Assembly: GCA_022925895.1 (NCBI GenBank)
Contig: JAKSYS010000057.1
Span: forward strand, 62,001 to 126,000
Origin: Fragilaria crotonensis
Lineage: Eukaryota > Bacillariophyta > Fragilariophyceae > Fragilariales > Fragilariaceae
Reading direction: 5' to 3'
Length of the DNA stretch: 64,000 nt
Positions within the stretch are counted from its first letter, which is position 1. Each line of letters opens with the position of its first letter. The notes under the pieces are model-generated. The model ran no database searches. It was given only the letters and a program-made list of their open reading frames with translations, and was not told the origin of the DNA. This document shows, one piece after another, positions 36,069 to 64,000 of the stretch. Both the position numbers and the translations under genes were made by a program.

Positions 36069-36079
36069 CCAGTTAATAG

Positions 36080-36546: not shown

Positions 36547-36756
36547 GGTTATGAGCCCAAGATCTCTGCTAGGGTTCGAGATCTTCCTAAGTACAGAAAC
36601 CGAAAAAGAACTTTTCAATCCCGAGTGACTTCCGAAGAGAGTCATAAGAGATAAAAGCTCGCCGGGTACTTCCAGACATACCACGTGGTGTGTAGGGCAT
36701 TCCCATAAAGCCGAAACAGAATCTTTCGGTAGAGGTGGTTCAGTCATACACCAAAG

Positions 36757-38844: not shown

Positions 38845-38849
38845 GCCCG

Positions 38850-41800: not shown

Positions 41801-43177
41801 AACTCGCCGCCACCGGGACAGCCAACCTTCGTCTACATCGACGATCAATATGCCGATTGGTACGAAGCTCGTTACGGCACCAAATTGTCTCGGGATATGG
41901 TGCTGCCAGTCCAACATGCCCTCCAAGGTCATCCTGAGTCCGGCGCCCTTTGGGAGGGATTCGTCAACAAGGTTATTGCACGTCATGGCTTCAAGTCTAC
42001 TACCCATGAACGCAGCATCTACCACGGCGTCTACAAAGGCCATCGGATGCTCATTTGCCGGCAGGTCGATGATCTTGCCATTGGTTGCATTGACCCTGAT
42101 GCTACTCGTGATCTTGTGAATACAATCTGTCGGGAAGATGGTATTGATCTCCGCGATGAAGGTCTCCTTGCATCATTTAATGGTGTCGACGTGGAGCAAA
42201 CCGACCGATATATCAAGATTACTTGCGAATCTTATATTGATAAACTCCTCGCTCATTACGGATGGTCTGCCGCAGGAACTCGTGACACTGACATGAAACC
42301 CATCGAGCCACTCGCGTCCTCTACGCTCCAACAGATGTTCGTTGAGTACGAATCTGCTCCTGCCAACGGTAGTCCTGAACATGCGCTGGTGGAGTCGGCT
42401 GCTGGTTTCTCCTATCGCAGCGTCCTTGGAGCTTTAATCTATGCTTATGTGGTCGCGCGTCCCGATATCGGCTACGCGGTTACAACCTTGGCTCGCTTCT
42501 CCGATCGACCAACTAAAATCCATTACGATGCCCTCCGCCGAGTTGCGCGTTATCTACGAATGACTAAATCCTGGGGTCTCATTTATTGGCGCCGCACTCT
42601 TCTTCCTGGTCTCCCAGCTGGTACCTTCCAACCACTTGCTTCCGATCCTTCCCTTCCATCCTTCCCGGAACCCGCGCACCCTACTCTTCTCGCAGGCTAT
42701 GTTGACGCTGCTCACGCTACGGATCTCATCACGCGGCGCTCTATCACTGGTTTGGTTTTATGTTCTGTGGTGGCCCCATCGCACAAATCAAAGATCCAAC
42801 CAACTGTGTCCACCAGCTCTACTGAGGCTGAATTCCTAGCTGCCGTTCATGCCGCAAAGATTGCCAAGTACCTCCGCTCCATTCTCTCCGAGTTGGGCTA
42901 TGCACAGCCTGGTCCTACTACGCTCTACGAGGACAACGCCGCTGCCATCCTCATGATCAATGCCAGCCGACCTACTCCGCGATCGCGTCACATTGATATT
43001 CAACATTTCGCGATCCAAGAGTGGAAAGCTAACCGAGAAATTTTGCTTGAACATATTCCTGGCATCATCAACTCCGCCGATTCCCTCACCAAATCTCTTG
43101 GTTCTACGCTCCATCACCGTCATGTGCGCCGTTTGATGGGGCATTACGGCGCACCCTGGACACCTCCTGTCCCTTGA
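38850..43177 (+). other. pol region of the copia element
   Basis: Recognisable parts in order: a GAG-pre-integrase zinc motif (LWHQRLGHLN then CPICLAAK) near 39940-40070; integrase core to about 40800; a PDZ-like stretch (GFEVSECHIRKRGYVSNII then IGAFIVSINDQPVFT) near 41000-41150; reverse transcriptase with LKVDATNAYANSPP near 41780 and CRQVDDLAIGC near 42065; and RNase H with STSSTEAEFLAAVHAAK near 42815 and LYEDNAAAI near 42930. The region is interrupted about three times. Confidence 0.85.
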
Positions 43178-43249
43178 CCTACCTACGATTGCGTCGCTGC
43201 ACTTCTGTTACTCATTGTCACCTTCTACGATTCTGACAATGGGGGAGTG

Positions 43250-43715
43250 TGTTCGTGCATATCTCCAGACTATATATCTACTAGTCCACCTAGCTGACTA
43301 CGGTACCGTCGTCTATCCGTACCGTCATCCGATACTCACCGCGTGGTCGCGTCGCTCCTGTCTCCTATCTAGTGACCCACGTATACTGGCTACCAAATGT
43401 AGTCTTAAAGCGGAGTACCTCTTGGACTCCGCTCACAACTTCTAAAACTTAGCTTATTCTATTTCTTCTACTGCACTCTTGCCGGTCTCGGATCGTAAGG
43501 GTAACGAGGACCAGATATAGCTTTGTCAACCGCCACCAAACACTCCGATCTCACAAAGGTAAACTCGCCCTGCTCGTGACATCTCATTATCGAACTGCGC
43601 CTCCCTGTTTCGCATCGACATCGACAACGAGGGCGCCCGGTCGCTGCCCTGCGTTTAATCCTGCTCCCCAGCGAGCGCGGTACCAAGGTAGGGCCTTGGA
43701 AGGTTTGGTCTCACA
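43250..43715 (+). repeat. Right LTR of the copia element
   Basis: Same sequence as the left LTR apart from two very short length differences. It is preceded by the purine-rich AATGGGGGAGTG, the presumed plus-strand primer. Confidence 0.93.
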
Positions 43716-44184: not shown

Positions 44185-45786
44185 TTACTTCTGCTTCCTG
44201 GCAGCAGCCAAATCCAAGTCCTCATACTTGTCATAGCAGTCCTTTAGTGCCCCAAAGGCCGCAGGGTTACCGTTGGCAAAAGGATTATGGAATTTACCAA
44301 TTTCTTCCATGTTGTTCTTGAAAAGTTTCATAAAGTCCACATACGTCGTCGTTTCCTTCATCATAGTTTCAAAGTTACACATGCACTTCCAGGAAGAACG
44401 ATCACCACAAGTAATGCGGAGGAAGGAATCCGAGAACTTGTAAGCGCCCTGTTGATTACCATCAGATTTTCCGAACATAAGTTTTTCGTACAATTCTTCA
44501 GCGGAAATTTCGGCTAACTCGTTCTCAGTAGGGCGATAGTGACGTTCATGCTTCGGGACCTTGATCAGATCCCATTCCTTAGCAAATCTCTCGTAATCGT
44601 CACTCTTCTTGAAAGAATCAAGCTTGGGAAGCAAAAATTGACGGAGCGGATCCCTTCCAAAATCCTTCACGTCCTTCAGGAGACGAGGTGGAGCACATCC
44701 GCTGTCAAACCTCATTTGCTCCATCTCCTTTTGTGCATTCTCATGCGCCTTTCGCGCCACCTTTTCCGTTCGGACCACCTCCTCCTTCCACATTTTCTCG
44801 GATTTGGTTTTCTCTTTATCCGACAACTGCCGAGGCTTATCCGATGCTGAATCCCAGTACTGACCAAGCAAATTTTGTAGAGCCTCTAGTTTTTCTCGAT
44901 TGTCTTTGGCAAAAGGATTATGGTATTTACCAATTTCTTCCATGTTGTTCTTGAAAAGTTTCATAAAGTCCACATACGTCGTCGTTTCCTTCATCATAGT
45001 TTCAAAGTTACACATGCACTTCCAGGAAGAACGATCACCACAAGTAATGCGGAGGAAGGAATCCGAGAACTTGTAAGCGCCCTGTTGATTACCTTCAGAT
45101 TTTCCGAACATAAGTTTTTCGTACAATTCTTCAGCGGAAATTTCGGCTAACTCGTTCTCAGTAGGGCGATAGTGACGTTCATGCTTCGGGACCTTGATCA
45201 GATCCCATTCCTTAGCAAATCTCTCGTAATCGTCACTCTTCTTGAAAGAATCAAGCTTGGGAAGCAAAAATTGACGGAGCGGATCCCTTCCAAAATCCTT
45301 CACGTCATGAATCAGCTCGAGCGGAGCTCGATGGCTGTGAACGCTCATCGCACTCTCGCCCTGGTCCTTCTTCGGGCTCTTTGGAGAAACATCCTTTCTT
45401 TCCTTCTTAGTCGCATCCTTGCCTTCTTTTTCCTGCTTCGGGGCGTCGTTTCTGCTCCTGTCCTTCTTCTCAGTCTCCTTCTCTGTCTTCTCTTTCGTAT
45501 CTGTCTCTTTTTTGGTCTTCTCTTTTTTCTCAGTCTCCTTTTTGGCCTTCTCTTTTTTCTCAGTCGCCTCGCCCTTCTTGGGAGTCTTTGAGGCATCTGC
45601 CACCTCGCCTCTCTTCGGACTCTTGGACTTTGTTCTCTTTTCCACTCCACCCGCGCCTTCGCTTAAAGTAAGCCCTTCCATTTGTCTGGAAACATCCTTC
45701 TCACGAGTATCACGGTTTCGATGGTCCGACAATACGAATCTTTCAGCGCGTTCGTCGTCAGGCTGCCACGCGTTTCGCTTGTCCAT
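44185..45786 (-). CDS. Tandem-array family member 1: two-domain SWxCM/FETMMKE protein, function unknown
   Basis: 533 residues, ATG at 45786. Not recognised. Layout: residues 1-45, a head with QMEGLTLSE shared with member 2; about 50-150, a Lys/Glu/Thr low-complexity region (KKETEKKEK-type repeats); domain copy 1 at about 157-312; a charged linker, probably coiled coil, at about 315-365; domain copy 2 at about 368-525; ending DLDLAAARKQK. Each domain starts DVKDFGRDPL, then WDLIKVPKHERHYRPTE, ELYEKLMFGKS and SSWKCMCNFETMMKE, and ends NNMEEIG....NPFA. The two domain copies match in DNA almost perfectly (about 395 bp, offset 633 bp, two mismatches by eye). No signal peptide or membrane segment. 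Paralogues are at 48965-51120 and 63191-64000. Confidence 0.8.
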   Translation of the reverse strand: MDKRNAWQPDDERAERFVLSDHRNRDTREKDVSRQMEGLTLSEGAGGVEKRTKSKSPKRGEVADASKTPKKGEATEKKEKAKKETEKKEKTKKETDTKEKTEKETEKKDRSRNDAPKQEKEGKDATKKERKDVSPKSPKKDQGESAMSVHSHRAPLELIHDVKDFGRDPLRQFLLPKLDSFKKSDDYERFAKEWDLIKVPKHERHYRPTENELAEISAEELYEKLMFGKSEGNQQGAYKFSDSFLRITCGDRSSWKCMCNFETMMKETTTYVDFMKLFKNNMEEIGKYHNPFAKDNREKLEALQNLLGQYWDSASDKPRQLSDKEKTKSEKMWKEEVVRTEKVARKAHENAQKEMEQMRFDSGCAPPRLLKDVKDFGRDPLRQFLLPKLDSFKKSDDYERFAKEWDLIKVPKHERHYRPTENELAEISAEELYEKLMFGKSDGNQQGAYKFSDSFLRITCGDRSSWKCMCNFETMMKETTTYVDFMKLFKNNMEEIGKFHNPFANGNPAAFGALKDCYDKYEDLDLAAARKQK

Positions 45787-48700
45787 GTTTAATTGATTGC
45801 GGGTTCAGGAGGCGTGCGTATAGTTCTTCAATCTGTTTTTGTGTGCAAAGTGACTTCTATGTTGGAAGGCGGTAGATGTTATACTGTAGAGTATTGTGCA
45901 AAGCTAACCTTGGTATCTCATCCACCCAGCGAAATGAGAATATCTTTCAATCTTACGCAATTGCGACAACACACATTTATAGCGATACCTACTATTAGGA
46001 AACTACACATGTTTGAAGGACGTATATACACGCGTGTGGCTATAGGCACACAACGAAGAAACATTTAATCGGATTGTCATAGTCCTCATCCAAAAGATCC
46101 ATCTGCAAAACGCCGCAGCGGACTTCAACTTTCTTATCTAGAGAGGCTCTCCTCTTAATAGGAGAGTAGAATAGTAATTATTGACTGCGACGTGAGGCCT
46201 CTGTATGTGCTCTCTAGTAGTAGCCATTAGTGTAATGGATAGTGGAGAACTGCCGAGAACTCCAGTGCTGTGAGAACATATCTTCGAGTAAATAGAGAAG
46301 CACCTTTGAAATTGATACACTTAATAAAGGTCCGAAAAATTCAATGGCAGTCTATTGCCTTACCGGTAGCTCTTATAGTGAGATCAGCAGATCCGCAATT
46401 TTTTTGGTTCTATGTACCGTACTATCATACTACTACCTACTAGAGTACTGGCACTCTTTAAATCCTATTGTGATCAAAAGACATATCATAACGATACTGC
46501 TACACAAGCAAAAGATGTAGTACTGTGATTATATCTACTGTCCTGCAGGATCTCCAGCACTCAGAACTGCAAGAGTAGCGCACATGTCAATGGACAACGG
46601 ACACTTCTCTCGCGCTGTCTGTCCCGCAAGGGAATGATAATGATGAAACTCTCATCGTCCTCTCGGATGATTAGAATCTCAAGAGAGGACTTGAAGATCT
46701 TGTCAAGGACAGCATAAAGCAGCACACTGTGGCGTTGAATGATATGAAGGAGAAGGGTTTTCCGTGGAGGTGGGGATCCCAAACGTGTTTCTGAAAGACG
46801 ACGATGCCAAGGCGAGTCCCGACAGGTTGTGCAGACTTGAAGAGGGCAAATGACAAGGAGCCTTTCAAGACAAGACGCGCAATCATTCGCATAATAAACA
46901 TCCCCTCGGGATGCAAGGGTGGTGGAGCGACTCATTTGAAAACGAAACGACCAGCACGAGGGCCGCGGTTGATTACAATTGAGAAATCATTCCTCAATAC
47001 AGCCCTGACCTTCATTTCGATTTAGAAGCAACGCCACATGAGAGTGGTCATTGTGATCTGCCTTATCAGTGGAGGGCTTGCCTTTTGTTCAAGGCTGTCA
47101 CTAACGCTCGATAGGATGATCAGGTTACAAGCGACGACTTGGCAGAGGCACTACTCTGTCGCCGACCAAAGAACAGTCGTTGTGCAAGAAAACCATCAGA
47201 TAGAGTCAATCGTTACAATCGAATACCAAGATGTGGCAATGGACAAGAACGACTAGATACCATGACTGCCTGGCATACATGCCTGACATTTTAATCAGGG
47301 ACCCTCTTGTGACGATGAATGCTGCGCTCTTGAAAGGAGTCGATATAAGCGAGCATAAATCTAGATTAGAAAGTCTGCAGCAGCCGCAGTGATGGGAGGT
47401 GCATTCTCGAAAATGTGCGCATGTGAGGCGCATGGGATTGGTTGACTCTTTGGATGTTTTGTACAATGTAGATGAATCCTGACAAAAACTAAGGTATTGG
47501 AGAATGATGCATGTGCGGAGCAGGCAGACAACGGTAGGACTCCGGCCCACAGCAGTCCAAAGCTACGGTCATGGGGTCTAGCTCGGTCTTGGAAAACCAG
47601 ATGACGACGCCGGTATCCACTTCCATTACCGATGATGAATGAGCGTGCTCAACTGGAAAGACTTATGACGACGTTGTTAAGAAATATGACCACGGATGTG
47701 ATGGAGTTGGTCGCGAAAGACGTGAGGGAATGAGTCAACAATCAAATGGAGGATGATTGCGATGCTAAGGTGATTGATATTTGGTTCAAAGATTTGGATT
47801 CCTGTGCTTAAAGCTTCCCAATACAAACACCAATACGCCGAAACTGATGTTTGCGTTTGGTCACCGGACAGAATACGATTCAGCTGGTACTCCGACTACG
47901 GTACTACCAGTAGATCCTGTCAGGCAGTCTCACTGCCTCGAAGCGACTAGCCCTCAGAATGAACGTTCTCAGCAAATCTTGTCATTAATTAACGAAAGGA
48001 ACGCAGCATTTATGAAACGATGAATCTTGCGGAGTCGTCACGAATTTCCAAGTTAAGTGGATGATCCATATTGGCCATCCGGCATACGTAACACAACGAT
48101 TTACATGAAGCTTGACTCGCGACAGACAGACACGCACCGGAACAGACAATAATCATTAGATTTATTTCCACGGTCCTGATCTGGTGTAAAACTCTTTTGG
48201 AGAACGTATCCAAGTCAAAGCTGACATTCCGTCAATCCTCTACGACAACAATCCCCTGTTATGATTCTCTTTAGATGGAAGAGCTGGAAGCTCCAGTCAC
48301 GCGTTGTTGAACTTGTCACCATCGTCAGGGATGAAGGCGATCTTAAGTTATTGAAAAGAGTCCCATGAAGGAGTAGTTTGTGTAAGCGAGTCTGGGGGAC
48401 ATGACTGGAGTCTGATGGCATGGTTTGTCCCCTTAGCTGGTTACCGTCCAAGAGCTTGGAGGGTGGTAGAGAGAGGATATAGAGCCTAAACACCGACGCT
48501 GATATGAACTTGTGAGGACTGCATGTCTCAAACAAACGAGCAAGGCGGATCCATATAATATCTGACCCATGCGACACGAAGATGATCCTTCTAGTATTCC
48601 CAAGGTTATCTGACAGATCGCGAGTAAGGTATCATGGCAGATTGCGGTTGGAAGTTTGTGGACAGGCGTAATCGAAAGTAGCCACCAGGACCGTGTGTGA

Positions 48701-48964
48701 TGCTTCAAGCCTAATCCTCATTGTACTGAGACCAAAGTACGGTCATCGCAAAGTGCAGGTTTGGAACGACTGGCGCCCAGCAGTTTATTGAATGAACAGC
48801 GAAAAATGGTAATGTGCGTAGGGTAAGTATTATTCGTGAAAGTTCGACCATTTCTGACTTAACGTGTCACCGCATCATACAGTCAAAAAGCAATTTCTTG
48901 AGTATTCAAAGATCCTCCTCAGTATGACAGAGACATGTTCAATTCTGCGTGCAATGCACTGTGG
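45787..48964. other. Spacer between family members 1 and 2, with decayed repeat copy
   Basis: 3.2 kb. It contains the first copy of a diverged repeat (46560-47260, listed separately). The remainder (47260-48960) shows only short open frames such as 47781-48023. The stretch at about 48290-48360 translates to a VRDEGDLKLLKR-like string resembling the repeat's coding-like part. I see no intact gene and no RNA gene. Confidence 0.4.
46560..47260 (+). repeat. Diverged duplicated segment, copy 1
   Basis: Aligns over its length with 52150-52870: for example GACTTGAAGATCTTGTCAA against GAGCTTGAAGATCTTGTCAA, GGGGATCCCAAAC in both, GTGGTCA(T/C)TGTGATCT in both and GATGTGGCAATGGACAAGAA against GTTGTGGCAATGGACAAGAA. 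Translated on the plus strand it looks like a decayed gene (NLKRGLEDLVKD-type helix), with many stops. It lies 0.8 kb upstream of family member 1. Confidence 0.6.
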
Positions 48965-51120
48965 TTACGTCTGCCCCCTCGCCGTTTCCAAATCCAAGTC
49001 TTTGTACTTGTCATAGCACTCCTTAAGTGCCGCGCAGGCTCTTACGTTTTCTAGGGCAAAAGGATAATGGCGTTCTCCGATTTTCTCCATGTTATCCTTG
49101 AACCGTTCCATGAATGCTTCATACGTCATGATTTCCTTCATCATTGTTTCAAAGTGACGCATGCAAGTCCAGGAATGACGATCGTAAAGCTCACCGAGGA
49201 GGAACTTCTCGAATTGCTGAGCCGCTTCATGATTACCTTGAGACTCTCCAAACATAAGCTTTTCGTACAGCTCTTGAGAGGGAATGTTGGCGAAATCATC
49301 CTTAGTTGGATGATACATTCGTTCCTGTTTCGGGATCTTGATCAGATCCCAATCCATAGCCAACCTCCCATAATTTTTAGTTTGCTTAAACGCATCCAGT
49401 TTGGTAAGCAAGTAATCGTAGAGAGGATTCCTTCCAAATTTTTTCACGTTCTTCAGAAGAGGAGGTGGAGCACCTCCAACTTCAAACCTAGTTCGCTCCT
49501 TCTCCTTTTTTTGGGCCTTCGCTGCCTTCTCATGTGCCTTTGCTGCCTTCTCATGGGCATTTCTCGTCGCCTTGTCCGTTCGGACCATTTCCTCCTTCCA
49601 CATTTTGTCGGACTCTTTTTTCTCTTTACTCGACAACTGCTTGGGCAATCCCGATGTAGAATCCGAGTACTTGTCATAGCACTCCTTAAGTGCCGCGCAG
49701 GCTCTTGCATTTTCTAGGGCAAAAGGATAATGGCGTTCTCCGATTTTCTCCATGTTGTCCTTGAACCGTTCCATGAATGCTTCATACGTCATGATTTCCT
49801 TCATCATTGTTTCAAAGTGACGCATGCAAGTCCAGGAATGACGATCGTAAAGCTCACCGAGGAGGAACTTCTCGAATTGCTGAGCCGCATCACGATTACC
49901 TTGAGACTCTCCAAACATAAGCTTTTCGTACAGCTCTTGAGAGGGAATGTTGGCGAAATCATCCTTAGTTGGATGATACATTCGTTCCTGTTTCGGGATC
50001 TTGATCAGATCCCAATCCATAGCCAACCTCCCATAATTTTTAGTTTGCTTAAACGCATCCAGTTTGGTAAGCAAGTAATCGTAGAGAGGATTCCTTCCAA
50101 ATTTTTTCACCTCCAGAACGAGCTCGAAGGGAGGGCGTTCGCTGTGAACATTCATCGCATCCTCGCCCTCGTCCTTCCGGCTCTTTGATGCAACATCCTT
50201 GCCCTCGTCCTCCTCCGTGCTACGCTCCGTGCGCTTCTCGGTACGCTTCTCCGAGCGGTTCTTCTTGTCCTCGTCCTTCTTCGGGCTCTTTGGTTCAACA
50301 TCCTTGCCCTCGTGCTCCTCCGTGCGCTTCTCGCTGCGTTTCTCCGAGCGGTTCTTCTTTCCCGCGTCCTTCTTCGAGCTCTTTGGTGCAACATCCTTGC
50401 CCTCGTCCTCTTCCGTGCGCTTCTCCGAGCGGTTCTTCTTGTCCTCGTCCTTCTTCGGGCTCGTTGGTTCAACATCCTTGCCCTCGTGCTCCTCCGTGGG
50501 CTTCTCGCTGCGTTTCTCCGAGCGGTTCTTCTTTCCCGCGTCCTTCTTCGAGCTCTTTGGTGCAACATCCTTGCCCTCGTCCTCTTCCGTGCGCTTCTCC
50601 GAGCGGTTCTTCTTGTCCTCGTCCTTCTTCGGGCTCGTTGGTGCAACATCCTTGCCCTCGTCCTCCTCCGTGCGCTTCTCAGTACGCTTCTCCGAGCGGT
50701 TCTTCTTGTCCTCGTCCTTCTTCGGGCTCTTTGGTGCAGCATCCTTGCCCTCGTGCTCCTCCGTGCTCCTCTCCGTGCGCTTCTTCTTATCTTTGTTCAT
50801 CACCGTGTCTGTGTCCTTTCTTTTCTCCAAGCCCTTCTTTTTGGGACTCTTCAATGCATCTTCTTCGGGACTGTCTGACTTCACATTCAAAGCTTTCCCG
50901 CTCCATCCACGCCTTGAGCATAGTCCTCCTTCTGGCCCTTCGCCTCTTTCGGACTCTTCAACTTTGGCTTCAAGTGCTCTCCCACTCCATCCACGCTTTC
51001 ACTTAAAGTAAGCCCTTTCATCTGTTCGGCAACACCCTTCTTACGATCACGACGGTACTCGTAAGTCATTGAGACGTCGTCGTCAGGGTTCACCGCATTT
51101 CTCTTGTCATCGTGGTCCAT
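48965..51120 (-). CDS. Tandem-array family member 2: repeat-rich two-domain protein, reading frame shifted once near 50890
   Basis: The head (MDHDDKRNAVNPDDD, ATG at 51120, with QMKGLTLSE as in member 1) is open to 50887. The rest is open in a second frame from 50890 to 48965 (641 codons). No credible intron joins them, so there is one frameshift, or an assembly error, or translation starts downstream. The second frame holds 6-7 copies of a 27-31 residue unit, TEE(H/D)EGKDVxPxSxKKD then KKNRSEKR, at about residues 43-245. Domain copy 1 follows at about 257-415 (FGRNPLYDYLLTKLDAF, WDLIKIPKQERMYHPTK, SWTCMRHFETMMKE), then a Lys/Glu/Ala coiled linker and domain copy 2 to the end. The domain copies differ by about three bases in 385 (offset 663 bp). 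Confidence 0.72.
50150..50800. repeat. Minisatellite inside family member 2 (units of about 81-93 bp)
   Basis: On the plus strand the unit reads TCCTTGCCCTCGTCCTCCTC then GCGGTTCTTCTTGTCCTCGT. Six to seven copies, partly arranged as an alternating pair giving a higher-order period of 174 bp (protein residues about 101-158 and 159-216). The lack of stops in most frames produces several long overlapping open frames on both strands (for example 50199-51011 plus), which I regard as shadows. Confidence 0.8.
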
Positions 51121-52149
51121 GTTCGAGCAACGAGAGGTCGGACCCTGCAGTTGTTTGCGGTTCCTCAACTTTTTTTTGTGAGAATGTGGTAAAGGTTCGG
51201 GAGTGCCAAGTGCCGACCAAAGACACTTGTATCAGGTCCACCTCGCGGAGTTTCGCAACCTTACGCAATTGAAAAATGTCATACTGAGAAAAGTGGTGGA
51301 GGTGTACGTATCATATTCATAAGATAAAATGGTTTTGCACGAAACGCGAACTTGGGTTTAGGCCTTATCATAGTTCTCCGAAAGGAACTTCTCTGAAGAT
51401 CCATCTGACATGAACTGTTTCCTTTCGCGTCTAAAATAAAACAAATCAATGGCCGACATGAGGTATGCCGGATTCGGCTTCTTTGCTGTGCAATCCGAGT
51501 ACTCCTGCACTGTAAAATTGTTTAATCCCGATGATCCGCCCATTGGGTATCATGAAACTTGAGGCATATATATTTTGTCTATTTACAGTATCTCAAGTCT
51601 TCGCTTTGCAGACATACACAAAAATGATACACTGAAATGACTTTAAAAACTATCTAGAGTTCCTCCTGCGTCAAGGGATACATTGGTTAAAAGCGTTTCG
51701 CGTCGCTCAGTGAAGTTTTTCTAGTCTCAGTGAAACGCTTCGCGTCTGAGGGAAACGCTTCGCGTTTCGCGTCTCAGTGAAACCCTTCGCGTCTCATGAT
51801 AGTGCGACGCTTCGGTGTGTCTTCAGTGAAACGCTTCGCGTCATGATAGTGCGACGCTTCTGCGCGTCTTCAGTGAAGCGTTTCGTTTGAGTGACGCGAT
51901 CGGAATAGCAATATGTTTTTCTCTCCCAGGACCTCGTCCCAAGAGTTCTTGACCATCGTCCAGAGTCATCTGCACTGTAACGCAAGTATGGAGTACATCG
52001 TATGTTCAGAGATGGGACTCAGCTTCTGGCGACGATGAAATTCCGAAATTCCAACGCCGATAACGTCACAACAACAACCGTTAGACCACGACTCATGTTT
52101 TCGTACCTGGCACTGGCACTGGAACTTGTACTCTTACTACTGTACTGAT
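51121..52149. other. Upstream region of family member 2
   Basis: About 1 kb. It should contain the promoter of member 2. It also holds a short tandem repeat at 51690-51898 (listed separately) and a GTAC-rich end at about 52110-52170. No gene recognised; the short open frames at 51358-51543 and 51794-51985 have no domain. Confidence 0.4.
51690..51898. repeat. Imperfect tandem and palindromic repeat, CAGTGAAACGCTTCGCGTC unit
   Basis: Several copies of TCAGTGAAACGCTTCGCGTC. Within it are two adjacent units of about 46 bp, each starting TCATGATAGTGCGACGCTTC (about 51795 and 51841). GAAACGCTTCGCGTTTC is itself a 7-bp-stem palindrome. It lies 0.6-0.8 kb upstream of family member 2. Confidence 0.75.
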
Positions 52150-52870
52150 ACTACCAGTACTCAAGTACGGCTGACGCCTTAGTAGTACTGTAGCATCTCC
52201 CAGGGAATGTGGAGACGAACAACTTTTCATCATGAGCTGCCTTCTGAATGATTCGTAATCTCAAGAAAGAGCTTGAAGATCTTGTCAACGACAACAAATA
52301 GAAATTCACTGCGGTGTTGAACGATAAGGAGAAAGGGGCTTCCTCGGAGGCGGGGATCCCAAACATGTTCCTGACTGCCTTCGCAGGAGAATCATCAGTG
52401 TTGAGGAAAAATGCCAGGGCGAGGGTGAGGTGGTTAGACGTTCAAAAGCATAAGTGCAGGCTGTGCAGGTGACAAGGATCCCTTCAAGACGAGACGCGAG
52501 ATCGGGTGTGTAGTAAACAACCCCGTGGGAAACCTCTTTTGAAAACAAAAGAATCAAGAGGATGTCCGTGTCACGTGTCGGATCACACATTGAGATAACG
52601 TCTCATCACGGTCCCTACCTTCATTTGGATGTACAATGCCACATGGGAGTGGTCACTGTGATCTACTTCAACAGTGGTGGGTTAAGCTTTGCGGGTGATG
52701 ACAAGGCCGTATCTATGGCTGGATTGGATGATCAGGTGACAAACGACGTCTTGGCTGAGGCACTAGTTTGTTGCTGACACTGGAACAGTCGATGTGCAAG
52801 AAAACATTGCAGTGGAATGAATTGTTGCAATCGAATTCCGAGTTGTGGCAATGGACAAGAAATACTACGC
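52150..52870 (+). repeat. Diverged duplicated segment, copy 2
   Basis: Counterpart of 46560-47260 (see that entry for matching stretches), placed 1.0 kb upstream of family member 2. A 71-codon open piece (52562-52777) remains, but the segment as a whole has stops in every frame, so it is a decayed copy. Confidence 0.6.
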
Positions 52871-53058
52871 CCCAGCCGGTAGGACAAAGGATTCTCATAA
52901 AATAAAATAAAATGTAACCTAATTATAGGGTTCGCACCATGTACATGTACCAGCCGGTAGGCCAGTACTGTGTACCCACACCCGGCAGCGTACCGCGGAG
53001 TGATTTATTTATTTATAGCTGGCACGACTGAGACTTATACATATCATGTGGTGCAATG

Positions 53059-56000
53059 TCATGTCGTCTGGCGAGGAAAAAAGGACGTCATTAGAGTTTG
53101 TTGAGAGCTCTCTTTCCGATAATCGTCCATGGATTGTTTCACAATGCGCAACCATCTTCGACGAGTCGACGCGGACCCAGAAAGAAGTTTATCTAAGGAT
53201 CGAGAGCAGTAATGCTGATCACGTGGAAGCAAAAGATGGGGCATGCCGTGATAGAGTCGGATCTCCGCGATGTCGGTGTCTCTAGTCTGTCGAACGTCTT
53301 CGTCTGCCTGATCGTGGAGGGCAGAGTTCCTTGAGAGCCAGATAGACCGCGAAAAGTTGTGGGTCGCCTCAATAATAGATCGTAATCGGGCATCGCCGCT
53401 CGCTGAGTTCGCACGAGTGGGATTATGAAAGTCGTGGCTAGCAGTCTTGCACCAGAGGGTGCTGAAGAATCCTTTAAAAGCATTACCCCACCCAATGGCT
53501 TCCTGGGATTGAATGGCAGCCTGAAGGAGGAGAACAAACTCGGGATCATATTCCGATAGACTGGGAGTAAAAGGGACAGACGCTCCATGTTCCAACCAGT
53601 GAAGAAGCCCTGCTGCAATAACGTACCGCGCCGGGTGTGTGTCTTTCGTGCGAATGGCTGCTTGCAATTGTGCGACATGACTAGCACGTTGCGGAACTGC
53701 AGGACAACGCAGGAGATGTTCGGAGTTTTCAACAGCAACTTTGCAACAGGGACATAGACTCAGCATCGGATCTTTGACCGGAGCTTGGCGAAGACGACGA
53801 ACGCCCAGGGGAAGCTGATCATGGACAAATTTTGTGCGAGTGATCTGATGTCGTGACGAAAGACGACAATAGTGCTTACCAAAAAGCTGAAGATCAATCA
53901 TGTTCCAAACATCGTCCGACCAGCCGTTCTGGTCCTGCATGTAGCGTCGAAGGTGATAGCCATTCACATGATAGCGTATACATTCATCATACTGGCCAGT
54001 GAGACGTTGATTGTTAATAGAAATGGAGCATTGTTGAAATGGAACGTGATCACAGCCTTGACGAGACGGCAAGGAACCCGTCGTGCGATATCCCGAAGCG
54101 AGAGAATCTGCCGCAATGTTTAAGGTTGCTGACACCGAAAGTATCCGTGTTCTGGAGGAGGAATCTTGATGTCCTTTAACCCAGCAGTGTTTGAATTTGC
54201 ATTTAATTGAAGCAAGATGCATCCGAATGAGCGAAATAAGGTCTGCATCAGATGGCATGCGCCTTGATGGACGACGTGTTGCAAAACGTCTCACTCGAGA
54301 AATTGCCGCTTTGCTATCGCAGATCCATGTAAACTTGGATTTATGCCGAAGACCCCAAAACCTGGAAAGATGATCAATGAAGAGTAAGGCAGAGGCGTAT
54401 CCGAAGAGTTCACATCGCGTCGATGAAGATGTATCGAAGGGCCCATCTACTGGACCCGCGCATCGAAATAATACGTGGGAGCCGGTTGAGATTACCCAGC
54501 CGTGTGTTCCCTGATTATTCAGAAGACCTCCATCAGTGGCAACATACAGTCGCTTGCGAGCCCGAAATGATTTCCACACTTGGAGATCCGTCGATATCTG
54601 TTCGAGACTGTCTATCATCCGTCGATGTGATTGTGGGAGACTCGAGAGGTATTCCATAAGATTGTCGAAGGTAGACGGAGACGAATGCCGAGTTTGAGTT
54701 GTAGTAGCCGGAGATTTAGGGACGGGAACTTTTTTCCAATACGGAATGTAGCGAAGAAACGATGACTTAATATATCCCTTCCATAGACGAATCTGTTGCT
54801 TAGACGGGGTCTGTTGTCGCGGCCATTGTTGATTCGCAAGAAAGCTCAGCGGTCTTTTGCCATCCAAGAAGGACAAATTAATTGCCTTGGGATTCGAACC
54901 ATCTGTTAATTCGGCAAGGGTATTCACTTGGAGAAACAATCGAACAAGGTTAATGTCCTTTTGTTGAGCAGTGGAATACCGTGCAAGATGAGATTCTTGC
55001 ATTATATACTCATCCGAATCACCTCGAAGTGGAATCTGAAATGGATCGCTCACCGTAACGGACATATTGTGAAGCGATAGGAATTGCCGAAGGGAGAGAA
55101 TCCAGGTTGGGGTAAGATAGGAGAGGTGTATATTCGGAAACTGTAGGAGGTCTTCGCCAATGCCAGCTTCAAGTTGAGAGTATTGCAGATTCAATCGAAG
55201 CAACTTGCCGTTCTCAGATTCACTGTAGATTGCATCTCGGAAGAATTTCAACGATTCAATTCCCGCTTCTGTCCGTAGGTCATAAAGATCTAAACCTCCC
55301 AGCTCACGGGGTCCGTGTCTAATAGCTGTAGAGATAGTGCTTTGTACATGCAGCTTCTTTAGGATGGCTGGAATAATGCGGGATTGTACGGTACTCAGCT
55401 CTTCTTCATCAAGTGCGACAGTTGCCAATCCGTATCTCATAGAAGGTACATATGTGGTCCGATGAAAAATGCTTACGTCTGCCGCAGATAAACGGGGCGA
55501 CATGATGCGAGTCGCAAAGATGTCTGCCTTTTTCTTCATCTGTTTCAGGTGAAAACCAAAGTCGCCAAGGGGATTCATGAAAACGCCTAACATACGTGTA
55601 GACTCATCGGGTTTTGTCCGCGTGATGATGGATGGGTTGTGTTTTTCCGTGCCGTGATAAATCTTGACCTCTCTGTCCGTCGCCGCAATTGGTCTAATTA
55701 CGGGACGACCCTTTGTCCACTCCCAGCGAACTATAAACCATGAGCACTTTGCCAGGTTAAGTTTTCCACCGGACAGATGTAATAGATGCTCCCACGTCTG
55801 CGCAATCTTTTCCAGGCGGGCAATTAGATCGTCGATATTATTGGTATCCGATGATGATGTGAAACTGAGAGAAGTGTCGTCGACAAAAGCGTCCGATAGT
55901 CTGGTGTGAACCATATCCCCCGAAATCGACGAGAAATTCACGCGATCAGGTATCAAGCGGTCCAACGTTTGCAATAGAATGACAACGAGGGAAAGCCAGA

Positions 56001-59000
56001 CAGCAGGGAGGCTCCGCTCCTTGACCGGTTCCGAAAAGGGAGAGAATGTCGTCCCATGATAATTTTCCTCTGATATGCCATAGACCGTTTTCACAGTATA
56101 TTTCATGAATTGTAGGGCATCGGCGTGTGTTCTGATTGCGTGTTTCGGCATACCACATTTCCGAGCCGCGAGCATCCCCAGTCCGACAATTATGCGATCG
56201 TAGCACGAAGAAGCGTCATTGTCAAAGCGAGCATAGTCATGCTTCAGAATCCGACAAAGATCGCTTGATAGCTGAGTGAGCATTATGGGATCAAGTGACA
56301 TACGACCTGGAATGGAACCATGTTGACCATTGTGTAGCAGATCAAGCGATAAGGCTCGGCGAACCAGACGATGCCCCCACTGAAGTTTTAAGAAAAAATT
56401 GAAATCCGCCTCAAATAGATGCACAATTCGAAGCCGATTAATGCGTGGCCTACCCACATCCTTTTCAATTAATACATTGACAGCCTGACTCCATCTCGGA
56501 ATAGAAATCCCGCTGCCAATCGCTATGTTCATGAATTTTACGAAACAGTCCAATAGGACTGGATGTTGTATTTCGGACTTATATAATCCCAGATGGCGTC
56601 CCGACGGTGAAGTGGATGTTGTTTCGCGCCAGGATTGAAAGCCTTTTCGAACATCGTCATGGCTGATTGCAGTCTCGATATATCCCTTTACCTTAACCGA
56701 GGGGAATTGTAAAGATGCGAGAAACTCGCGTAGTGCCTGATCCTCATGTGACCATTCACATGGTGGCATACCGTCGAGTATCTTGTCGGATGCCAGAGAT
56801 AATCCCGAAAATGTGATGGCGTCGTACAATAGACCATTGCCAAACGGTGATTCACTTGCTGCCCTGAATGAGTCTCTATTGTACTTCAGAAGATGCGCTT
56901 CCATTTGGGACCTTTCGATCACCGTGTCCCAGAGGACATCGGATGGATCTTGAGTTTGAAGAATGTGATAAGCACTTGATGCCTCTTCCCATCTTGATCG
57001 AGAGCCGAGGATCCCGATGGAACCAAGATTTTGAGAGACTAGATGCTGTAAATGGTTTAACCGTGCGACGGATTTCGCGAAATTTATTCCGAACCGTTTC
57101 GCCGTCGATTGTCCTCCGAACGACTTTTGCTTTGTGTCGAGACGCTGTCATAGTTGCAGGATTGGTGTCTGTTTCATACCTGACAATCAAATCTTCGTAG
57201 CATTTCAGCCGCATTGGCGTGGCATCAGCTTGACATTTGTAAAACTCTGACGACGCTTTATTAAACTGCGCACGGACTTCTTCGAGAGGTAGTTCCTCAT
57301 TGAGAAAGGGGAAGAAAAAGTTTTGATCGTGCTGTCGGAGCTGACCTTGCCATCGTGTGAATGTTGCAGAGTAATTTTTCCTTCTTGAAGTTCTCGTAAT
57401 CGAAGCTTCCAATATAAACGAGTAAATGCTTTGTTGCGGAGGATCGGGGACCAACGACATTTTTTTGGAGGTCGTTTTAAAACATTCTCCGCTGCCTTCA
57501 TTGCTCTGCCCTTGTCATTATCCCATCCAACTAGTCTGGCGCGAATATCATCCCGCGACATGGAATGGTAATTATTGTGCAGGTCGTTTATTCGCTCTAC
57601 CATACGGTGTGCGGTGTAATACTCCACGACTTTGTCATTGTATTTCGCGACAAGTTCTGGATTGCCTGTATGCACCGTGCGAGACGAGGGTAGAGATATT
57701 GCCGAAGACCTCTGAAAAAAATCCAGCTTGAGATCCACGTAAAGACCGCGATGGTCTGACTGTGGGCCCTCGTTATACGATAATGTTCCTGATCTTTCCA
57801 GGAATTGTCGTGCATGATGACAGCCCAGGATGAAGTCAATTCGACGAGATTCAGCTCCAATGTATGTTGACTCCGCCGGATCGTTAGCATGAAGATCGAA
57901 AAGTGTGCAGTGATCAAGAAAATCAGCAAAGTGAGTATCGGATTGCAGAGTGGAATTAACGTCCATCATGACTATGATCGCATGGCCCTGTTCTTGAAGT
58001 TGAAGTACTTGTTGTTGAAGATCGCGAAGGAAAAGTCTTCTGGGATTGACTGATTGCTTGGTGGACAAGTGGAAATAATTATATTCTCTGGCAAAGGAAC
58101 TGCCGAGCGGCGCGGAGCGAATGGACCCAGAACAGACGCGATAAGCTGTAATCACGGTAAGTTTTTTGTGCCTCGGAGCCCGAGAAAGTGATTCCAGACC
58201 ATCTGCCGAGACCCGTAGGATCAAGGATGTTTTGGCCATGTACTCGGGAAACTAGACAACCCACCACAAATGTAAGTGTCCCCCCAGCTTGATACGTCTC
58301 TGAAGAAGGTATCGGATCAATATCGTTGGATGGTGAACCGAAAACAGTTTTGCTCTGCCTGTGAAACCTGCGTACCACGTTGTTGAAATCATCCCGTAGA
58401 TGAAAATGTTGCCAGCACGTGTTGGTCTCAGCAAGACCAGCAACATCGACATGGAGTGATTGAAGTGAGTTCATAAAATACCTGTAGTCGTCGCTACCCA
58501 GAGAGGAACTTAAACCGTGTACGTTTTGGAAGAAGAGTCGCACTGTATTGTTGGATTTTTGAATGATGGCATCTCCATATGACTTTGACGCAAAGGAATC
58601 TAAGGGATTGTGGCGAATGCGGCGTCCAGGGCGATTAGGAATGGACATGAAATGGCCAATTGGAAGAAGGGGAATGGATGAATCGATGGGAAGATTGCGA
58701 TAACTAAAAGACTTGGAAGACGTAGAATTTTCTGAAACATGGGTTCCCCCGCGGTCGATTTCGTGTTGCAGAAATCGTCCGCAGCTCACTGTTGTCCAAT
58801 GGGAAACTCATGTCGCGTCCCCTCCGCCTTGAGAGCTATGTTCTTTGTATCGACTCTCAAGGTCGGTGGTGATCTCATCCATATCTGTTGATGGTGAAGA
58901 TTCGGCGTTGTCGTCTGGTGGCAATGGTGTATGTACGGCCTGGGAGAAAGGATGCAAGTTGTCCAGATTGGGATCATCGGACATCTCATCAATCGTGGTG

Positions 59001-59049
59001 ACCATGATTGTAGGTTGTAAAACTCCGTCTGCGGATCCGTTGCTGTCAT
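53059..59049 (-). pseudogene. LINE B ORF2: endonuclease-RT-RNase H, frameshifted
   Basis: Domains by position: APE endonuclease at about 58600-57700 (VRLFFQNVHGL, TGLGRWSGITF, MMDVNST, RRIDFILG, SDHRGLYVDL); RT at about 56700-55300 (SPSGRHLGLYKSE, NDASSCYDRI, FVDDTSLSF); RNase H at about 54550-54100 (YVATDGGLLNNQG, RCELFGYASAL, WICDSKAAISR); and a Cys-rich tail near 53760 (LSLCPCCKVAVENSEHLLRC). Frame changes occur near 58170, 57370 and 57000, with another near 58790. A pair of compensating indels near 56010-56050 scrambles motif B: LINE A reads GTGQGSGASPA there, LINE B reads EPVKERSLPA. The presumed start ATG (59047-59049) overlaps the ORF1 stop as ATGA. Confidence 0.85.
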
Positions 59050-61799
59050 CTTTGTCGTGGCTCATGCCGATGTCCTCCATGTCGTCTTTGTGGAAACCAG
59101 CTCGATACTTCTTTTGATAGGTGACGAGAAGGACTCCTATCCAGCTGACGATTTGATGAATCCGACGGGGACGGAAAGGACTGTTGGTTGGTATTTGCCA
59201 CGGTTGCGGTGGAGTTGGTGTCATTGAGCAATGGTGAAATGCCAAGTGCTTGACCGGTGTTCATGTTTGTTATAGCGATCATGTCCATTAGAGCCGATAG
59301 TTTGTCGCTGAGTTTGTTCATAGTTCCGCCGACTCCGGCTTGTGTTTCCATAACATTCATGAGATTGCCTTGCATAGTGTCGAACCTGTGATCCATATCG
59401 TCAAATCTTGTAAATTGTCGTTCCATGCGTTCCAGTCGCTCCGTATTGATACGATCCTTCCGATCAAATTCCTTCTGTTGACGTTGGATTCGAGCTTCTA
59501 TTTCTTGGAATCGGGCTGTGGATGTTGACATTGAAGACAATCGGGAAGTGGCAGAATTGTTCGAGTCAGTTGATGCTGTTGTCTGTGCTGTGGAACGCAG
59601 ACCATATTGTTCCCGAAGTGAATCCAATGATGTCGGTGGAGCCTTTGACTTAGCCATTTCTTTCTGTTCCGTGGAAATTTTAGAACCTCCTGTTTCAGAG
59701 GATGAATCGTTTGTTGTAGATACAGGTTGGTCGGCTGCTCCGCCGGGTGTCAGAGAAGAATCAGCTTTCGATCCTGATTCTGCAAATGACTCGTCGCCTT
59801 GAACTGATGTTTGCTTCCACGATTCCGTTGAAGAGAATAATTTGTCAATAGAAGACAAATTTTCATTTACTTTAGAGAACACATGTATAACTGATGGAGG
59901 AGGACCGATTGCTTCTCTGAACCGTTCTTCTCTGATCGAGAAAGGAAAGACTCGGCGACGGTACTCTTCAAACGCTTGACGAACAATGACTTCGTGCTGA
60001 GGAGCCATGAGTAGGAAAGATTTTTGATCGTAGCCTCCATTAACGACATCGACATGTGCTGATTCGTTTCCGTCGGCAGATAGGATGGATGCGGCCCAGT
60101 CTCTTGTGGTTCTCTCCATTGTTGTGCCATCCGGGAAAAACTCTGTCCTCATGGTGTCTAAATTGTTAATCAGTGGAGACAATTGGATATATCTGAAGGA
60201 CTTGATATAAGAGTCGTGCTTGTCAAATAAATTCATTGCCTCGGCCGTCGTCATTTTCGCGAACGCAAATCTCGGAATGTAAACTCCAGCTCCAGATCCG
60301 TCCAGTGCAGAAAGTAGCGTCTGGCTCAAAGAATGAACGTGGTTTTTTCCACATTGTACCACCAGATGATTGATGTCCTGATCAAATGGAGTTCGTCGAT
60401 GAAGGAAAATGTCGAAAAAAGGAGTCGTGGCGGGAAGCTTGCTGCGTAAGCTTTGGAGGAAACGTGTGCGATGAGTTGTGCGAGGAGCTTTGAGAAGTAT
60501 ATAACCCGAAATGACCTGATCGCCGCTGGTGCTTTTGGAGTTTGAAAACATCACTGAGACTTTGTTCCTTGTGAGTGCTTCCTGCACTCTCGACTGGTTT
60601 TTCCAATAGAAAGACGGTTTATCAGTGAATCCGAACCGAAGCGCAATAATGATTTGCGATTGGGACGGTAGAACCGATAGGGAAGGAGCAATGTACGATC
60701 GGACTTCCTCTGGCGTCATTTTTGATAAGGAGTTGTAATTGTCAGTTCCTTCGTCTTTCCACAGGTATAGAAGGCCATCCTCGTCTCGGAAGATATCGTT
60801 GAGAAGCGAGTGGATTGCAACGGATAATTTCTGCGATTGCTGAGATAAGGCAAGCGAGACGACGTCTGCCGTCGTTTTCCAACGAAGCGAGATACGAATG
60901 GTGCCATCATTAATAGGAATGTTCGAGTTTGGAATCAGCGCCGACATTTTTCCATCCGCGGACGATGTAGTAGAATTCGACTCCTTGTTCTTTTCTTCAT
61001 GACCTTGTGGGTGGCTTTTTGGTGGCGGGTTGTTGATCTGTGGGTGTGGTTTGGTTACTGGTGGGAGCGGAGTTGTGTGGGACTTTGGAGTGGGCGTTTG
61101 AAGTGTTTGTGCTTCTGGGACTCCTGGAGTTTCCACATCCATCGGTTCGTCGTCTAGTTCTTCTGGAATTGGAGGGGTAGTGAATGCAAGTTGTTGTTTG
61201 AAGAGGTCTGTTGTCTTAAGAGCGATTGACATCTTCTTTGGCCCAGAGGATGTTTTCCTGGCGATCTGGGTACGACGCTTTGCCTTCGCGGATCCGATGA
61301 CCTTGTTCCATGAGTAGATATTGTTTGCACGCTTTGCCCACGCCTCGAAACCGACTGTGATCGTGTCCACTGGGAGAACTTTATCGGTGTGAGTGGATAA
61401 GTAGGGAAGAGAGAAACTGTTTGCCCAGTCGTGAAGTTTCTTTGGAACATCGAGTTTACGGTCAATGTAGTACATATAACGATACCAAACAACTAAGTGA
61501 AGTTGAAGTTGATCGTTATCGAAATTGTTCCAAAGTGCTTCGAAGTTGGGAAAAGACACAATGTTTCGCCCAAGAGTTGAAAACCTATGCCAGACAGTTG
61601 GAGTGGTATCGTTGCGTTGGACTGTTTCCTCATAGATGCGTTTGACGCGATCGTTCTGCGTCTCAGACAAGTGCTCAGGAGGAATGTCGGTATCGGGGAA
61701 ATCCTTCCAGTCCTTCAAATGAAAACCAAAGTAGTTGTCAGTGTCAGGAGGGAGGGACGTGAGGAGGGTTTGGGACGGATGAGCCGCTGCTTCGGTCAT
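59046..61799 (-). CDS. LINE B ORF1 protein
   Basis: 917 residues from the ATG at 61799 (MTEAAAHPSQTLLTSLPP); the frame stays open to 62063 but the leader shared with LINE A lies inside that extension, so the later start is preferred. It matches LINE A ORF1: an N-terminal block with WYRYMYYIDRKLDVP, a central region with IRISLRWKTTADVVSLAL, and a C-terminal coiled coil (RFQEIEARIQRQQKEFDRK) ahead of a Ser-rich tail. No zinc knuckle seen. Probably the RNA-binding partner of ORF2; this is inferred from position only. Confidence 0.72.
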   Translation of the reverse strand: MTEAAAHPSQTLLTSLPPDTDNYFGFHLKDWKDFPDTDIPPEHLSETQNDRVKRIYEETVQRNDTTPTVWHRFSTLGRNIVSFPNFEALWNNFDNDQLQLHLVVWYRYMYYIDRKLDVPKKLHDWANSFSLPYLSTHTDKVLPVDTITVGFEAWAKRANNIYSWNKVIGSAKAKRRTQIARKTSSGPKKMSIALKTTDLFKQQLAFTTPPIPEELDDEPMDVETPGVPEAQTLQTPTPKSHTTPLPPVTKPHPQINNPPPKSHPQGHEEKNKESNSTTSSADGKMSALIPNSNIPINDGTIRISLRWKTTADVVSLALSQQSQKLSVAIHSLLNDIFRDEDGLLYLWKDEGTDNYNSLSKMTPEEVRSYIAPSLSVLPSQSQIIIALRFGFTDKPSFYWKNQSRVQEALTRNKVSVMFSNSKSTSGDQVISGYILLKAPRTTHRTRFLQSLRSKLPATTPFFDIFLHRRTPFDQDINHLVVQCGKNHVHSLSQTLLSALDGSGAGVYIPRFAFAKMTTAEAMNLFDKHDSYIKSFRYIQLSPLINNLDTMRTEFFPDGTTMERTTRDWAASILSADGNESAHVDVVNGGYDQKSFLLMAPQHEVIVRQAFEEYRRRVFPFSIREERFREAIGPPPSVIHVFSKVNENLSSIDKLFSSTESWKQTSVQGDESFAESGSKADSSLTPGGAADQPVSTTNDSSSETGGSKISTEQKEMAKSKAPPTSLDSLREQYGLRSTAQTTASTDSNNSATSRLSSMSTSTARFQEIEARIQRQQKEFDRKDRINTERLERMERQFTRFDDMDHRFDTMQGNLMNVMETQAGVGGTMNKLSDKLSALMDMIAITNMNTGQALGISPLLNDTNSTATVANTNQQSFPSPSDSSNRQLDRSPSRHLSKEVSSWFPQRRHGGHRHEPRQR

Positions 61800-62063
61800 G
61801 GTGGTGACGCACGGGACGGCTTCGGTGGTTTTTGTACTGCAAAACGGGCGACGGACAGACTGGTGTTTCAAATTCTTAATACTAGAAATTGTGTCACAAA
61901 GGATTCTCATGTACTTGCCTGATTTGAACAAGACCTTGCCGTGGACGCTCGTGACGTGAGGCCATGAATGATCGGCAAACAAAAAAATGTCCATTTCGAT
62001 GTGGAGATCCAAACCTGCTTCACTGAGATACTGCCAAGCAAGCAGCGACGTACTGATTATCAT

Positions 62064-63190
62064 TTTATATATGGTGTGTTTGACGCCGAAGCGTTCTTTT
62101 CAAGTAGAAGCATCCCGTCGATTCCACAAGTCGTTTCGACCGTTTCAATGTCTGTGCGTCTACATACAGCTTGTTCCACATTTCAAAGCAAAACAACAGC
62201 AAATACGAACGGCAGCCACGCCTGCCATCTCTCCGTACCCTCTTGACCGACTAATTTCCTAACGCTGTCGGTTTCGCCTTGTCGTATTCCGTTTCATGGT
62301 CTCGGGCTGCTGTGGCGACACACTGACCCGTACTATGGGGCAATGGCTGTGTGATCTTCCCCACAAGGAATCGTACAAGCCAGGATACCAGCACTCTCAT
62401 GAGTCTCGTGAACAACACTGAATTCACGAACGGCTGGAAGTTCTGTTTCAACGATCATGGCAAACAATGTCATACGTGGAGTTTAATGAGAAAGCATGCG
62501 GCACTGGCTTGTGATGAACGTCATGGCAGCAAAGACATCGGTTCGGAGTTTACACCTACATATGACGATACTTCCAGAATCGGCTTGAGGTCACGACGGA
62601 CAACAGCTGAAGAGTCTCCATCGGAGATCCCAAAGGTCACCAGGAGGACGGTGTCACATCACAAACTTGAGAAAGCTCCTTAGAAGGACCCGACCCTCAC
62701 ATTCCTTTTGAAGGATAAGTGGTTTCAGTGATGGTCAATGTGATCTCTTCAACCTAGGATTTGCCGTACCGTACCTTAATTAGTTACTCCAAGGACGTGC
62801 TGCCAATGGACTGTTAGCGGTTGGATCAGCTATCGACGATCGGACGCCCAAAGATGTTTGCAACTGGCAGCAATTGACGAATCGACTATGAAATAGTGAA
62901 GTAGGCCAGCAACTTTGATGTGTTGACGTGTTGAGATGTAATTCCTAAATTTTAAAAGGCAAGCTATACGACCAAAGTTCGGCCATCCCCAAATGAAGAA
63001 CGACGTTGCAATTTGGAGCCTATCAACCGTCTCTGATCCTTTCAGTAGGTGAGTGAATGTAAAACGAAAAATGTAAAAAATGCAGTGCATCGAGTCAGCA
63101 ATATCGAGTAAGTTCAACCCTTCTGATGCTTCGACGTATGGAGTTGCCACTCCGATTTCAGCATGACATCACGGCTCAAAGCCTTCACTG
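62064..63190. other. Spacer between LINE B and family member 3
   Basis: 1.1 kb. About 62700-62755 carries a fragment like the duplicated segments (GGTCAATGTGATCTCTTCAA against GGTCACTGTGATCTACTTCAA in copy 2), suggesting the rest of a third decayed copy was displaced by LINE B. The part next to member 3 resembles the 3' flank of member 1. A 110-codon plus-strand frame (62351-62683) has no recognised domain. Confidence 0.4.
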
Positions 63191-64000
63191 CTACTGCATC
63201 CTCGCCGTTTCCAAATCCAAGTCCTTGTACTTGTCATAGCATTCCTGAAGAGCCGCAACAGCCTTCGGGTTTTCGTTGGCAAAGGGGATGCGCCATTTTG
63301 CTCCGATCGTCTCCACGTTGTACTTGAACAGTTTCATGAATTCCGCATACTTCGTCTTTTCCTTCATCATAGTTTCAAAGTGACGCATGCAATTCCAGGA
63401 ATAGTCATCATTGCACTGATGGGCGAGGAAAGAGTGCACGAATTGGTTAGCCCCGTCTTTGTTACCTTCAGTTTCTCCAAACATGAACGTATCGTACAGC
63501 TCCTCAGCGGTAATGCTGGCGAAATCGTCTGTTGTAGGACGAGTCTCGGGGTTCTTGATCAGATCCCACAAATGAGCACATCTCGTGTAGTCGTTACTCG
63601 TCTTGAATGCATCAAGTTTGGTAACCAAGTAAGCATAGAGAGCATCCCTTCCGAATTTCTTGACGTCCTTCAGGAGATGAGGTGGAGCACCTCCAACTTT
63701 AAACCTGATTTGCTCCTTCTCCTTCTCCAATGCCTTGGCAGCTTTCAGCCTGTCATTCTCTGCCTCCTCCTGTGCAACGCGCATTGCCTTCTCCACTCGG
63801 ATCATCTCCTTATTCCATAATTTTTCGGATTCTTCTTTCTCTTCAGCAGACAACTTCCGAGGCTTACCCGATTTAGGATCGTAGTACTCGTCATAGCATT
63901 TCTGAAGAGCCGCAACAGCCTTCGGGTTTTCGTTGGCAAAGGGGATGCGCCATTTTGCTCCGATCATCTCCACGTTGTACTTGAAAAGTTTCATGAATTC
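63191..64000 (-). CDS. Tandem-array family member 3 (partial, runs off right edge)
   Basis: The open frame covers the end of domain copy 1, the charged linker and all of domain copy 2, and remains open to the window edge, so the N-terminal part is missing. Domain copy 2 reads DVKKFGRDALYAYLVTKLDA, WDLIKNPETRPTTDDF, ELYDTFMFGETEGN, YSWNCMRHFETMMKE, IPFANENPKAVAAL and ends DKYKDLDLETARMQ. It is six residues shorter than members 1 and 2 between WDLIK and the PT motif. The C-terminal ends of the two domain copies (63304-63344 and 63961-64000) are nearly identical in DNA, as in the other two members. Confidence 0.78.
   Translation of the reverse strand, partial: EFMKLFKYNVEMIGAKWRIPFANENPKAVAALQKCYDEYYDPKSGKPRKLSAEEKEESEKLWNKEMIRVEKAMRVAQEEAENDRLKAAKALEKEKEQIRFKVGGAPPHLLKDVKKFGRDALYAYLVTKLDAFKTSNDYTRCAHLWDLIKNPETRPTTDDFASITAEELYDTFMFGETEGNKDGANQFVHSFLAHQCNDDYSWNCMRHFETMMKEKTKYAEFMKLFKYNVETIGAKWRIPFANENPKAVAALQECYDKYKDLDLETARMQ

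Follow-up and report, generated by a model that had tools for sequence, protein, structure and literature searches.

Polyubiquitin is a repeat gene whose units are homogenised within the gene, and filaggrin is reportedly another. The sections of the published account of spider major ampullate silk genes that bear on this describe clustered copies in which the units within a gene are more alike than those in neighbouring paralogues (PMC9779670). Multi-SIT silicon transporter (SIT) genes are recorded from araphid pennate and other diatoms and from one ciliate in the corresponding sections of another account (PMC6114903). Here we describe a gene family of the diatom Fragilaria crotonensis that can be compared with both. 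The window is a stretch of 64,000 nucleotides (positions 62001-126000 of contig JAKSYS010000057.1, labelled C537, assembly GCA_022925895.1) and carries three paralogous genes on its minus strand, members 1, 2 and 3, each with two copies of a domain of about 155 residues. Within each gene the cores of the two copies were nearly identical, and cores of different window genes were about 70% identical. This near-identity, together with copies of the domain on four other contigs, is new beyond an earlier note on this DNA that was made from the letters alone.

Member 1 is one open reading frame (ORF) of 533 residues at 44185-45786 and is laid out as a head, a Lys/Glu-rich part, domain 1 (D1, 44848-45327), a linker and domain 2 (D2) with a DLDL tail (44188-44697), on the minus strand like all family features of the window. 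Member 2 is one open frame of 611 residues at 48965-50800, with D1 at 49658-50134 and D2 plus terminal tail at 48968-49474. Member 3 is present with its C-terminal 269 residues (63191-64000), including D2 and the terminal tail (63194-63691), and continues past the window end, which interrupts its D1, the sixth domain copy; completed just past that end it has 489 residues. With a single domain copy as query the other five copies in the cluster were recovered at expect values (E) of 3.8e-92 to 2.5e-47. The earlier note had described three minus-strand two-domain paralogues and these results bear it out, the ORFs lying where it had placed them and the core motifs and DLDL-A-R tail reading as it had given them.

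The homogenised core of member 1 spans 401 nucleotides and is 99.5% identical between D1 (44906-45306) and D2 (44273-44673). The core of member 2 spans 444 nucleotides at 98.9% identity (D1, 49667-50110; D2, 49004-49447), and that of member 3 spans 438 nucleotides at 96.8% identity between D2 (63227-63664) and a D1 tract that crosses the window end (63884-64321 in window-scale coordinates), or 429 nucleotides at 97.2% by a stricter boundary. Beyond the core tracts D1 and D2 were 40-47% identical in the left flank and 42-58% identical in the right one, and 30-nucleotide bins held 28-30 identical bases inside the tracts as compared to 7-20 outside. The longest clean run was reached by 0 of 20,000 permutations in each of the three genes. 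The left edge of the tract was found 12, 9 and 6 nucleotides ahead of the FGR codons in members 1, 2 and 3, respectively.

The whole genome (62,107,879 bases in 881 contigs) was searched for the domain and further copies were detected on four contigs, labelled C86, C235, C457 and C231, labels that we also use for the family genes there. C86 and C457 each carry one gene with two domains, the latter being the most divergent member of the family, and C235 carries one gene with three. C231 has two degenerate domain places adjoining ankyrin-repeat genes, one of them with in-frame stops. These degenerate copies (C231:12108-12530 and 61482-61954) lie next to nearly identical ankyrin-repeat ORFs and probably arose by segmental duplication of a stretch with a dead member of the family. 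The published F. crotonensis assembly, probably this one, is given in the relevant part of its account as Nanopore-based, short-read polished and 81% complete (PMC9476933), so the family counts are lower bounds.

The alignment comprised thirteen copies, without copy 1 of C457 and the C231 place that contains stops. The resulting tree paired D1 with D2 by gene in member 1 (support 92/99), member 2 (100/99) and member 3 (99/99), as well as in C457 (100/100) and in C235 (94/92), where the paired copies have nevertheless diverged. Grouping the three window D1s as one clade was rejected (approximately unbiased test, p-AU 7e-43). Units therefore cluster within the gene as against paralogues in 3/3 window genes, the pattern of intragenic concerted evolution.

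Sequences around the cores followed position instead of gene. The tail [KE]x[LV]D[LV] was detected after 7/7 terminal domains (the C231 fragment included) and 0/7 internal ones, and L[ST]xxE after 5/7 internal and 0/6 terminal domains. RxP[FL]EL precedes D1 in members 1, 2 and 3 and C86 only and stands ahead of 0/6 terminal domains, and G-(C/G)-A-P precedes D2 in the same four genes. In a comparison of hand-aligned tails that left out the C86 and C457 internals, internal tails were 29-64% alike and terminal tails 36-86%, and the two tails of one gene 21%. As flanks and linkers are position-specific and common to the genes, each gene homogenised its own cores, either by conversion or by unequal exchange, which these data do not tell apart.

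Selection on the domains was assessed using the ratio of replacement to silent substitution rates (dN/dS). In all 12 between-gene domain comparisons of the window dN/dS was 0.35-0.45 (dS 0.71-0.91), not near 1, and replacement changes were depleted in the three window D2 pairs (Fisher p 1.7e-6, 1.4e-5 and 1.3e-5). Within genes, D1 against D2 gave 0.43, 0.46 and 0.70 for members 1, 2 and 3, with a significant replacement deficit in member 1 only (Fisher p 0.012). Many comparisons with C235 and C457 were saturated, and averages of this kind are compatible with a few positively selected sites. By these substitution patterns the window domains are under constraint, not diversification, and do not support the diversifying pressure to which the earlier note had likened the locus.

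The libraries searched gave no convincing relative of the domain. In Pfam no family rose above its curated cut-off (rows scored 11-16 bits where the cut-offs were 22-28) and single members gave a best row of E 0.04, not significant; no bromodomain row was returned in these scans of the family. NCBIfam and PHROGs gave no significant profile match (best E 0.09 and 0.024, each in a single protein), PADLOC no convincing one (six proteins gave only two rows, both weak, at E 0.01 and 0.024), and PDB sequences contained no relative. Scans for relatives in viral contigs and prokaryote genomes were negative; among eukaryotes the family search covered this genome. The domain family thus matches nothing in the libraries searched, as the earlier note had supposed.

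AlphaFold models were made of D2 from members 1 and 3, both from the same alignment of the five complete window copies and so not fully independent. The member 1 model was all helical (mean predicted local distance difference test score, pLDDT, 86.3; predicted template modelling score, pTM, 0.82), and the member 3 model (pLDDT 79.1, pTM 0.78) had nearly the same helix order plus one short end helix. A single all-helical fold is therefore predicted for both, and the two agreeing models together with the low dN/dS support the earlier claim of a real fold under selection. Foldseek with the member 1 model returned no significant match in PDB or viral models, which is no proof that the fold is new; second looks with the structure aligner gave only middling and tied scores, bromodomain and other helical-bundle folds among them. 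The bromodomain is by definition a left-handed four-helix fold. The window copies share 68 invariant residues. Fifty of these fall in predicted helices, and 33 of the 50 are hydrophobic, as expected of a packed core. Across the 13 copies the only invariant residues are C, E, Y, F, F and L, with G, K, L, Y, F, F, M and P almost invariant. We infer from this set that it does not resemble an active site.

The heads of the window genes and C86 are Lys-rich and of mixed charge. SPKK is a DNA-minor-groove motif of histone-H1-like tails, and strict motifs of this type numbered 3 in member 1, 4 in member 2, 0 in member 3, 2 in C86 and 0 in C235, as compared to shuffled means of 0.10, 0.19, 0.10, 0.15 and 0.02. 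The motifs in three heads hint at a possible nuclear location. Hydropathy gave no membrane segment in the window genes (17-residue maxima 0.10-0.44, member 2 head 0.17) and no signal-peptide-like hydrophobic stretch in members 1 to 3. The SPKK-bearing part of the member 2 ORF includes a low-complexity repeat array (50244-50788; 174-nucleotide period, 3.1 copies, 94% matches). The head motif QM(E/K)GLTLSE that had been reported as conserved in members 1 and 2 is present in both, but the member 2 head (MDHDDKRNA... QMKGLTLSE..., 50890-51120) is in a different frame from the main ORF, with QMKGLTLSE at 50998-51024 out of frame with the 611 residues. This difference may reflect an intron, an assembly indel or a frame break; breaks of the frame by a single base should be treated with caution, the assembly being probably the Nanopore-based one. 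Short tandem repeats with periods of 20-47 nucleotides were seen at 51724-51885, about 0.6 kb 5' of this head.

Taken together, the reading we tentatively prefer, with somewhat less than even confidence, is an intracellular, perhaps nuclear, paralogous family of non-enzymatic, two-headed binding or scaffold proteins whose cores are overwritten within each of the three clustered genes. Proteins of the window genes and of C86 begin with a charged Lys-rich head that is probably disordered, followed by two modules of about 155 residues, predicted to be all helical, on a charged linker. Most likely the modules would bind proteins or nucleic acids, allowing a single chain to hold two partners or one symmetric partner; support for this putative binding or scaffold role is weak. 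In each clustered gene recombination between the direct copies has recently overwritten the domain cores, so that the heads of one protein stay alike as the paralogues drift apart, and matched heads may be of benefit.

Several observations weigh against this reading. Pairing of the two C86 domains was absent from the tree, though unrejected (p-AU 0.12), and these domains have diverged (dS 0.86), so matched cores are not obligatory. Two of the seven internal tails (C86 and C457) are without L[ST]xxE. dN/dS was higher in comparisons with C86 (0.53-0.75), and within members 2 and 3 constraint was non-significant (p 0.093 and 0.34). The heads are of mixed charge (net +4 in member 2), and member 3 and C235 lack a strict SPKK motif. 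The member 2 motifs sit in the repeat array and the SPKK heads may share motifs by descent, so the motif counts are not independent. Near its start C86 shows a hydropathy maximum of 1.58. Short-read polishing could also have raised the last percent of core identity.

Pairing of D1 with D2 by gene would equally follow if a single ancestral domain had been duplicated recently and independently in each gene, with no old pair to homogenise. The position-specific left flanks, linkers and tails common to the genes speak against this, as do the alignment of members 1 to 3 over 1,247-1,271 nucleotides spanning both domains and the linker, and the C86 gene, which retains two diverged domains and a linker related to that of the window genes. 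These features are better explained by an old pair of domains whose cores were overwritten recently than by three fresh duplications, which we consider improbable. At the other extreme the domain might be a new all-helical fold found only in diatoms, or only in Fragilaria and its relatives, in matched pairs with conversion kept by selection since both heads must be alike; we regard this stronger version as unlikely.

Other proposals concern what the proteins do. They could be chromatin or nucleic-acid-binding proteins proper, with SPKK heads binding DNA and helical modules reading a nuclear partner, a possible but doubtful account. Clustered paralogues, repeat-rich heads of unequal length and surrounding transposons would suit genes for defence or recognition that evolve fast through diversifying selection, toward which the earlier note had leaned; beyond this clustered, repeat-rich setting we found no positive evidence, and the low dN/dS between window genes, the significant constraint in D2 pairs, cores homogenised within genes rather than diversified and the weak PADLOC rows make it rather unlikely. 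Repetitive Lys-rich chains are common in diatom silica-wall and organic-matrix proteins, and the Lys-rich low-complexity heads could on that ground belong to structural or mineral-associated proteins, to which we give the same low probability as to defence. The intragenic homogenisation that recalls silk genes, as treated in the part of that account used above (PMC9779670), would favour this role; what is conserved, however, is a helical module with a predicted fold and not a repeat fibre. Silaffin-like wall proteins carry a secretory signal peptide, and by hydropathy members 1 to 3 show no hydrophobic stretch of that kind. Least probable of all is a domesticated retrotransposon gag-like helical protein. 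An all-helical module and charged head adjoining copia and other retroelements would fit it, but profile comparison with the gag-like ORF of one neighbouring element gave a probability of 0.2% and the single Gag row in Pfam was at chance level (E 0.13).

The region is transposon-rich, as had been noted, with copia-type and non-LTR-like elements in the window. Direct repeats of 469 nucleotides at 36079-36546 and 43249-43715 are 99.4% identical and enclose copia-type ORFs (RVT_2 and gag_pre-integrs by Pfam), and 36079-43715 is by this structure a young long terminal repeat (LTR) retroelement ending about 470 nucleotides from the 3' end of member 1. Two non-LTR-like retroelement ORF sets were recognised by eye, at 1-6974 and at 53059-62063; the latter stands between members 2 and 3, and its four scanned ORFs had no Pfam match. 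Degenerate sequence at 46667-47255 and 52248-52867, 5' of members 1 and 2, is 67% identical over 649 aligned nucleotides and recurs at C86:43426-44098, C217:865-1473 and C50:5790-6040. The C86 gene likewise has it on its 5' side, oriented as beside members 1 and 2, which makes it probable that the gene and this sequence were duplicated as a unit. At the C50 site it is overlapped by an open frame of 223 residues that has no Pfam match.

In the relevant section of the published account, 14,593 of the 26,015 genes predicted for the likely source genome, more than half, have no annotation (PMC9476933). For three genes of such a genome there is now a defined domain with its boundaries, a fold prediction and a place in a small family. 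The overwriting of paired domains within a gene can be compared in the same genome with C86, where the pair has diverged, and C457, where it is partly alike. This offers a compact setting in which to ask if selection acts on matched tandem domains or if they are a mere by-product of recombination.

As compared to described systems, the predicted model of the domain is all-helical and bundle-like, as are bromodomains and other helical bundles. Like multi-SIT genes, in the part of their account relevant here (PMC6114903), the window genes are diatom genes with head-to-tail modules, two or three in the SIT case, in one frame. Matches to silicon transporters in this genome have expect values down to 4e-193, and a single frame of 1,456 residues contains three SIT modules; silicon-transporter genes with three and two modules, each one open frame, were seen at C97:29749-33762 and C771:21664-24330. 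SITs are membrane transporters, whereas the three window proteins have no membrane segment by hydropathy and no Pfam match. In pattern the window genes resemble the silk genes, where in the published sections units within a gene are likewise more alike than in neighbouring, clustered paralogues (PMC9779670). Unlike silk, polyubiquitin and filaggrin, to which no sequence relation is suggested, the window genes homogenise only two units, each a predicted folded module of about 155 residues; their tracts end sharply, and the flanks are conserved and specific to position.
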